Shown: positions 43,529 through 44,547 of the stretch, one piece after another
Layout: every line of letters begins with the position of its first letter
How positions within the stretch are numbered: position 1 is the stretch's first letter
Assembly (NCBI GenBank): GCA_013791775.1
Contig: VMTE01000025.1
Location: 1 to 64,000 of the forward strand
Direction of reading: 5' to 3'
DNA length: 64,000 bases
From: Hyphomonas sp.
GTDB taxonomy: Bacteria > Pseudomonadota > Alphaproteobacteria > Caulobacterales > Hyphomonadaceae
Position numbers and translations under genes: made by a program
Notes under the pieces: model-generated
The model's database searches: none
What the model was told of the DNA's origin: nothing
Seen by the model: only the letters and a program-made list of their open reading frames with translations

Positions 43529-43754
43529 CTGGTCTCTTCGGGGCGGAAATGTCGTGAATGCGGCGGCAGGGCGTGTGATCCGGCCAGCCCTATGGCCCGT
43601 TGCGGCGTCAGCAGCAACAGGGGCAGCAGCCCGAAGCGTTAATAGCGACCATCGACATGCGCGCTCCGATAACACCTTACGCCGCGAAAGCCAATAATCT
43701 GCTGATCCATGACGCGACGGCGTCCGTAGAAAGCGCTGGAAACGGACGATGTGC

Positions 43755-43857
43755 AGTCCTATGTGTTGTGGCATCGCCCTGAGGGTATCAACTCCGGGCG
43801 GGCGTTAAGTCCGTGCAGAGATGCCCCGGCTCGACCCCCGTCCCTCAGTGAAGGACT
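43755..43857 (+). promoter_or_regulatory. Structured folE leader with pseudoknot potential and ribosome-site sequestration
   Basis: Three perfect helices can form before folE. P1 is AGTCCT (43755-43760) with AGGACT (43852-43857), which contains the Shine-Dalgarno AAGGA. P2 is CTGAGGG (43779-43785) with CCCTCAG (43842-43848), nested in P1. A third, GGCATC (43770-43775) with GATGCC (43820-43825), crosses P2 and would be a pseudoknot. A second AGTCC at 43808-43812 competes for GGACT at the ribosome site. A candidate RNA called the folE motif has been reported from alphaproteobacteria; I could not test a match. The rest of the 336-bp gap (43529-43754) shows no gene. Confidence 0.6.
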
Positions 43858-43864
43858 AAAACCA

Positions 43865-44491
43865 ATGGCTATGGACGCCGTCACACCCAAGAACGACCTC
43901 ATCCGTGCGGATTCCGTGATCCGCCCGACGCAGGAACAGGCCGAAGAGGCCGTCCGCACGCTCATCGCCTGGGCGGGAGACGACCCAAGGCGCGAAGGCC
44001 TGATCGACACGCCCAAGCGCGTCGTCAACGCCTACAAGGAATGGTTCGAGGGGTACGGCGAAGACCCGGTCAAATACCTCAGCCGCACTTTCGAGGATGT
44101 GCAAGGCTATGACGACATCGTCATGCTGCGCAATATCGAGGTCGAAAGCCATTGCGAGCACCACATGGCACCGTTCATCGGCAAGGCCTTCGTGGCCTAC
44201 AAGCCGTCGCACGCTGTTGTCGGAATCTCGAAACTCGCCCGCGTAGTCGAAATTTTCGCCAAGCGCCTGCAAACACAGGAAACCATGACCGCGCAGATCT
44301 GCGACGCCATCACCGAAAGCCTCGCGCCGATGGGCACCGCCGTGCTGATCGAAGCCGAGCATCAGTGCATGTCCACACGCGGCGTGCACCACCGCCACGT
44401 CACCACAGTGACGACGCAGTTCACCGGCGTCTTCAAATCGGACGCAGACCTGCGCAACCGCTTCCTTCGCATGAGCGAGCAGCAGACCTGA
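43865..44491 (+). CDS. folE: GTP cyclohydrolase I (FolE1)
   Basis: Converts GTP to dihydroneopterin triphosphate, the first step to tetrahydrofolate. 208 residues, decameric cytoplasmic enzyme. Zinc ligands are Cys97 and His100 in [10 protein letters not shown], and Cys168 in [32 protein letters not shown] is intact. AAGGA lies 9-10 bases before the ATG at 43865; an ATG at 43871 is possible. The leader is strongly structured and may regulate translation. The gene is divergent from cysS. Confidence 0.96.
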
Positions 44492-44513: not shown

Positions 44514-44547
44514 AAAACGCCCGTCATGGTTTCATGGCGGGCGTTTT
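44514..44547. terminator. Rho-independent terminator after folE, symmetric
   Basis: AAAACGCCCG (44514-44523) pairs with CGGGCGTTTT (44538-44547). The loop contains a second short pair (CATG/CATG). The A tract before and T tract after make it potentially active in both directions. Confidence 0.88.

Follow-up and report, generated by a model that had tools for sequence, protein, structure and literature searches.

According to an excerpt of the published description (PMC6800512), FolE performs the first step toward folate, and the THF-II RNA always precedes folE, binds reduced pterins and is distributed in Rhizobiales or metagenomes only. An excerpt of a second source (PMC9881143) places the THF-II pocket in J12/J21 by crystal contacts, with C22 (J12, UCAACUC) and U44 (J21) contacting the pterin, and lists U25 and C53 among the contacts of the three-way-junction pocket of THF-I. 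The Rfam consensus of THF-II reads CCGUUCAACUCG...ACUACGGGAG.

The window (the whole stretch of 64,000 nt of Hyphomonas sp. DNA that was analyzed) carries a leader RNA, R1, that resembled THF-II in its place before folE, in its occurrence in Alphaproteobacteria and in its form, a hairpin with an asymmetric 5′ bulge; in both, the Shine-Dalgarno sequence (SD) was at or near the 3′ side of P1. The fixed core of R1 was in P2/P3 and its J1/2 was variable, whereas the THF-II pocket is in J12; the SD of THF-II belongs to the P1 3′ arm, whereas that of R1 was outside P1, 1–7 nt past it; and R1 had an additional variable hairpin and belonged to a different taxonomic order. Of the pairs under the THF-II pocket (U17-A45 and G16-C46), U17-A45 had no counterpart, and in the window no A separated the facing U from the 3′ arm of P1. 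The window had both UCAACUC and a facing U, as in J12 and J21 of THF-II, as did 27 of the 113 leaders with P1; the other 86 were without UCAACUC. These occurrences could be accidental or could reflect kinship. THF-I forms a three-way junction with a pseudoknot, whereas the R1 consensus had no junction. We take the CGUUAAGU of R1 before a helix, with xxCG after it, to resemble the THF-I pocket strand with U25 and C53, but the R1 U corresponding to U25 was A in 15 of 128 leaders. As in riboswitches generally, the leader of a metabolic gene held an RNA whose structure was conserved and covaried.

R1 is an RNA family absent from Rfam 15. No Rfam 15 model matched the whole window at gathering scores, and no relevant model matched the leader at E up to 10; neither preQ1 nor ZTP models were among those leader matches. 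At gathering scores, 15 further folE loci (seven R1-type and eight Caulobacteraceae) were without a match, as were the leaders of seven loci, four of them R1-type (L023, L042, L063 and L078), at E up to 5. The preliminary description of this DNA had raised identity with a known folE motif; in the Rfam search RF02977 (THF-II) did not match the leader at E up to 10, and none of 41 genomes, those of the window and of its relatives, contained it. When a positive control was sought in genomes of the class, RF02977 exceeded its cut-off in 0 of 142 and 0 of 385, and none of four subthreshold matches was in a locus with FolE. RF01831 (THF-I) exceeded its cut-off in none of 21 genomes, including 14 control genomes that likewise had none, and a search at E up to 10 did not find it in the genome to which the window belongs. 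Membership in THF-II and in THF-I was therefore rejected on the covariance-model searches. No description of the R1 motif was found in the titles and abstract beginnings of the openly licensed papers that literature searches listed.

Occurrence of the motif before folE

R1 is a covariance model trained on 29 leaders, the window's own leader among them. It matched the window once (91.9 bits, E = 1.6e-19; Table 1), with no second match at E up to 10, and a search of the complete genome that contains the window, at E up to 0.01, likewise gave a single match. Strictly filtered searches of two genome samples found R1 in 136 of 398 genomes of the order (E up to 0.01; 21 of 59 genera) and, class-wide, in 2 of 385 genomes, both from the window's genus (Hyphomonas). 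All matched genomes had one copy, with a single exception that had two. This genome, G501, had its two matches (L166 and L204) each preceding a folE; one of the two folE loci resembled that of Parvularcula (L063), so that it could be a second copy or contamination.

Outside the genus, 99 of 100 R1 matches had folE downstream on the same strand. In 98 of these 99 the pattern placed the core start 52–97 nt upstream of the position of FolE residue 1; the remaining one, L196, was placed by inspection and had a core with one inserted T. The contig of the hundredth match stopped 27 bases past the motif. Every R1 match examined that had downstream sequence was followed by folE. A FolE match was found in all 42 genomes of the window's genus, and the nearest named relatives of the window's FolE were from Hyphomonas and Hyphomonadaceae. 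Of 80 named loci, 22 carried the motif upstream of folE; Hyphomonas and other members of the Hyphomonadaceae predominated, and single Henriciella, Ponticaulis and Parvularcula loci were included. The 17-base 5′ strand of the core was also found alone, as two exact pattern matches, in two viral contigs (L269 at 2212 and L270 at 3588); no FolE was found within 1.5 kb downstream and no 3′ core within 160 nt, and these copies were taken as chance.

Leaders were selected by the core pattern with up to two substitutions, and L196 was lost by its inserted T. From 220 loci with FolE, 159 had the core, one was masked (L121) and 60 were without the core by pattern; besides L196, most of these 60 were Caulobacteraceae, other families or loci at a contig start (L004). 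The 159 core loci gave 131 distinct leaders. The column test used 128 (L216, L218 and L223 dropped; insertion), the FolE tree 124 (four further leaders without usable FolE dropped) and the SD counts 130 (L246 dropped, start codon not found). Alignment A1 comprised 29 of 41 distinct leaders and alignment A2 100 of 134.

The preliminary description held the folE leader to be structured and probably regulatory, and the conserved, covarying RNA found before folE in relatives bears this out: we regard the leader as almost certainly a conserved cis-regulatory RNA of folE.

Structure, conservation and covariation

Table 1. Features of the folE leader in the window.
Feature	Positions	Strand	Basis
Probable promoter: −35 CTGGAA (43736-43741), 18-nt spacer, −10 TATGTG (43760-43765)	43736-43765	+	Similar words in relatives
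R1 motif, whole (~85 nt)	43776-43860	+	cmsearch with R1
P1 5′ arm, CTGAGGG	43779-43785	+	P1 in 113 of 131 distinct leaders
J1/2 strand, UAUCAACUCC, of variable sequence	43786-43795	+	UCAACUC in 27 of 113 P1 leaders; others vary
Core 5′ strand, GGGCGGGCGTTAAGTCC: P2, internal loop, beginning of P3	43796-43812	+	Column conservation, 128 leaders
P3 upper part, variable hairpin	43813-43827	+	8–44 nt in relatives; double changes on the FolE tree
Core 3′ strand, GGCTCGACCCCCGT: P3, internal loop, P2	43828-43841	+	Column conservation, 128 leaders
P1 3′ arm, CCCTCAG	43842-43848	+	Pyrimidine strand; SD partner in most P1-less leaders
Shine-Dalgarno, AAGGA	43851-43855	+	Sequence; 2 nt past P1
folE, GTP cyclohydrolase I, 208 aa	43865-44491	+	FolE match

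The window alone was not decisive, because its stem counts and folding energy were not exceptional, and the relatives had to decide. The RNA folding energy of 43740-43885 was ordinary (z = −0.62). The 103-nt stretch contained three perfect stems of at least 6 bp (mean of 300 dinucleotide shuffles, 0.89; P = 0.06) and one of at least 7 bp (0.18 in the shuffles; P = 0.16).

The RNAalifold consensus (29 of 41 distinct leaders) was a single rod, P1-P2-P3: P1 (CUGAGGG/CCCUCAG) was followed by a 5′ bulge of ~12 nt; P2 comprised GCGGG/YYCGY, a C.C mismatch, GUU/GAC, an A.C mismatch, AG/CU and a bulged U; and P3 comprised CCGG/CCGG and the variable hairpin. In the window, P2 started with G43798-U43841, C43799-G43840 and G43800-C43839, and P3 with C43811-G43829 and C43812-G43828. 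The near-invariant core, GGGCGGGCGUUAAG(U/A)CC..hairpin..GGCUCGACCYYCG, had its near-invariant nucleotides in P2 and in the P2/P3 internal loops. Among 128 leaders, 12 of the 17 columns of the core 5′ strand were invariant and 16 were at least 97.6% identical, as were 11 of the 14 columns of the core 3′ strand. Two columns of the 3′ strand were C or T only, with 16 and 9 changes on the tree, and faced an invariant G; the same C/U-only columns faced G in all 100 rows of A2. The last column of the 3′ strand was T in 97 leaders, C in 22, A in 8 and G in 1.

In A1 (a MAFFT alignment), 98.7% of the cells paired and four pairs had changes on both sides (0 of 500 shuffles). A1 alone was weak, because a control slid by −3 columns came close (three pairs and six double-changed cells, against four and five in A1). 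In the model-fitted A2, 96.9% of the cells paired, with nine such pairs and 54 double-changed cells (0 of 500 shuffles), against six pairs and 19 cells in the best slid control. Kinship was controlled for by placing changes at random on the FolE protein tree (124 leaders, 500 simulations). The three outer P3 pairs showed 4, 1 and 5 double-change events (null means 0.29, 0.30 and 0.56; P = 0.000, 0.258 and 0.000 of 500), the second being without significant excess; the next three column pairs, with no bulges allowed, showed 0, 0 and 3 events, without significant excess (P = 1, 1 and 0.054). G35-C85 changed jointly to A-U once, in L063 and L204 (P = 0.018, FolE tree). Most other core columns barely varied, so their pairing was neither supported nor opposed by them; P1 also scarcely varied, so that its support came from joint presence and absence more than from compensation. 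The motif is a real RNA structure, given that P3 covaries on the FolE tree and C/U-only columns face invariant G.

One clade (L207, L214, L217, L219 and related loci) had an extra 5′ hairpin directly before P1, whose arms by eye varied jointly between species (GGGACC/GGUCCC, GGGGC/GCCCC and GGGCC/GGCCC). From 43751 an open frame continues into folE. A coding extension was rejected, because the distance spanned by the core fell in all three frames (53, 40 and 38 of 131 leaders); likewise, with P3 hairpins of 8–44 nt, every frame relation between the core halves occurred.

The words on which the preliminary description based its helices were present (AGTCCT at 43755, AGGACT at 43852, CTGAGGG at 43779, CCCTCAG at 43842, GGCATC at 43770, GATGCC at 43820 and AGTCC at 43808), and the conserved core (43796-43812 and 43828-43841) had been missed. 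CTGAGGG/CCCTCAG was the only one of the proposed helices that was general, being found in 113 of 131 distinct leaders. In relatives, the outer helix and the pseudoknot were not kept: at the position of AGTCCT/AGGACT a stem of at least 5 bp was found in 2 of 113 leaders, and at that of GGCATC/GATGCC in 3 of 113, the window included in both counts. The second AGTCC, proposed as a competitor for the SD, could form a pair of at least 5 bp in 18 of 113 leaders, and an SD followed by GGAC was no more common with core GUCC (40 of 106 P1 leaders) than with GACC (2 of 5); conservation gave this competitor no support, and it was rejected. A pseudoknot of GCCC (before P1) with the GGGC of the core was considered by eye only and was not retained.

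The AGTCCT arm of the outer helix also overlapped the probable −10 element. In 74 of 113 leaders, TATN(T/C) preceded P1 by 13–20 nt, compared with 2–5 of 113 for four shifted windows. Relatives also had CTGGAA-like −35 words equally far from P1, and in the clade with the additional 5′ hairpin the CATATCC word stood farther upstream. A promoter consensus scan instead listed a site at 43669-43698. Judging from the promoter words, the RNA probably starts near 43771-43774, so that AGTCCT (43755-43760) is probably untranscribed. Directly past folE, at 44514-44547, an inverted repeat (AAAACGCCCG / CGGGCGTTTT) looked by eye like a long-loop intrinsic terminator; a terminator scan limited to loops of 3–8 nt listed none there. 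With this terminator-like repeat after the gene, folE would be a single-gene transcript.

Ribosome site and proposed regulation

P1, defined as CTGAG or CTCAG at most 24 nt before the core together with a matching 3′ arm, had exact CTGAGGG and CCCTCAG in register in 90 of the 113 leaders that possessed it. An SD-like word was found 1–7 nt past P1 in all 113, most frequently at 4 nt. CCCTCAG did not follow the core in any of the 18 P1-less leaders, most of which had at that place a strand of pyrimidines that complements the SD (CCCCUUU.GAAAGGGG, CCCCAA.UUGGGG, UUCCC.GGGAA and CCCCG.CGGGG). Folding from core to start codon reached −6 kcal/mol or lower in 15 of 18 P1-less leaders vs. 3 of 112 P1 leaders; those without a strong hairpin were L221, L227 and L233. 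A possible P1 of other sequence was seen in L093 (GGGCUG/CAGCCC, P = 0.07) and in L233 (GGGGCG/CGCCCC, P = 0.13).

The complementarity and folding of the P1-less leaders imply that the strand past the core can pair with either of two partners, P1 or the SD. This strand is the best clue to the expression platform, and it would suit either direction of control. P1 would free the SD, and the P1-less leaders look closed by default. In P1 leaders the alternative pairing past the core was weak (mean −2.4 kcal/mol); as P1 leaves the SD free, a shut-off of translation is unexplained there. Computed SD access did not tell the states apart, and an ON switch accounts no less well for the closed SD hairpins of P1-less leaders.

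R1 is best read as an undescribed cis-regulatory RNA, probably a translational riboswitch that would sense pterin or folate. The transcript would begin just before P1; the invariant internal-loop region would be the binding pocket, most likely for reduced pterin or folate; and binding would alter the access of the ribosome to the SD past P1, and in this way end-product feedback would tune folE translation. Control is probably exerted at the pyrimidine strand past the core, which is able to pair with the 5′ arm of P1 in the majority of lineages and, in most P1-less leaders, with the SD itself. The preliminary description had already named pterin/folate status, which is the natural signal to suspect. 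We infer the ligand and the direction from the sequences, and give about even chances to R1 sensing reduced pterin or folate to adjust translation. That it would further constitute a new riboswitch class, the third for reduced pterin or folate, with its own P2/P3 pocket and restricted to the families around Hyphomonas, is a tentative reading to which we assign somewhat less than an even chance.

A rival is a riboswitch for something other than folate, responding either to a deficiency signal that would turn folE on or to preQ1/queuosine; the bound core would hold the pyrimidines and free the SD. GGG of the core (43796-43798) can pair with the pyrimidines right past the core, the strand that closes the SD in most P1-less leaders, but the GGG side is invariant, which puts this pairing beyond a covariation test. 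FolE also feeds queuosine, and a preQ1 riboswitch is possible on this ground. An excerpt of PMC3766115 states that a preQ1 riboswitch regulates folE in many Firmicutes, but the preQ1 and ZTP models were missing from the leader matches already described, and we consider a non-folate ligand somewhat unlikely. A near-invariant rod with mismatches and a bulge, before one gene, could also be the site of an autogenous or other protein that blocks the ribosome; conserved internal loops under a variable hairpin, however, resemble an aptamer, and protein binding appears unlikely.

A divergent or related THF-II that escapes the Rfam model would account for the UCAACUC and facing U of the Hyphomonas J1/2, which correspond to J12 and U44 of THF-II in the excerpt of PMC9881143, and for the GU/AC step beside the 5′ bulge that R1 and THF-II have in common. 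Against it are the many P1 leaders without UCAACUC, the facing U, which 31 of 128 leaders replace by C, A or G, the missing counterpart of U17-A45, the SD outside P1 and the unmatched RF02977, which together make such a kinship quite improbable. The motif stands close behind a conserved promoter, as a conserved DNA or promoter element would; covarying P3, pyrimidine-only columns facing G and the extra 5′ hairpin of one clade are features of RNA, and a DNA element is hardly credible.

Being short and well conserved, R1 lends itself to tests of a possible third class of folate/pterin riboswitch, and the P1-less lineages are natural variants of its expression platform.

Leader RNAs of folE in other families

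Caulobacteraceae folE leaders (31 distinct) contained a hairpin, GGGUGGCACGCGUCAUUUCCGG...CCGGCGCAACUCAGCCC (GGGTGGCACGCGTCATTTCCGG..CCGGCGCAACTCAGCCC), borne out by one pair that was G-C in 21 leaders and A-U in 8. Hairpins of this type were directly before folE in L045, L053, L057, L064, L081, L106 and others, and no Rfam match was found in the eight loci tested. The hairpin resembled R1 in serving the same gene at the same place and in the words GCGU...UCCGG/CCGGC.C.AC. The model R2, built on the Caulobacteraceae leaders (alignment A3), matched 50 of the 398 order genomes (E up to 0.001), all in one family, which is called Caulobacteraceae after its source leaders and in which R1 had no match. 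No sampled genome of the 398 had both R1 and R2, and over half matched neither. Homology of the two was considered and was not supported, since the models did not recognize each other significantly: R1 scored 10.2 bits (E = 2.9) within the leader motif at 1 of 16 Caulobacteraceae loci, and of 20 subthreshold R2 matches (7.6–9.7 bits) on 28 R1 loci, 5 were inside the leader motif.

The non-overlapping use of two RNAs at this position suggests that the order has a persistent need to control folE through its RNA. Related families with differently designed leader RNAs for one gene bear on the origin and replacement of riboswitches; if the proposed function of R1 is true, Alphaproteobacteria would, counting the Caulobacteraceae hairpin and the Rhizobiales THF-II, have several times put different RNAs before folE.

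No Rfam model matched any of six folE leaders from Rhizobiales plasmids at E up to 1. The folE leaders of L261 (Shinella, 340-459) and L262 (Sinorhizobium, 331-449) shared a block of more than 100 nt, TGTTTGGGAAACCGTGCCGGACGGTCG ... GGAACCCAAGCCTGCAGGGTTAGGCG, which had no Rfam match at E up to 1 and is possibly another undescribed leader RNA. Three loci (L097, Glycocaulis; L102, an unassigned bin; and L109, Marinicauda) had a common CTGGATCCGGAAACCGG just before folE and shared AAAGGATCCGC at the ribosome site; GGATCC words in these leaders could pair.
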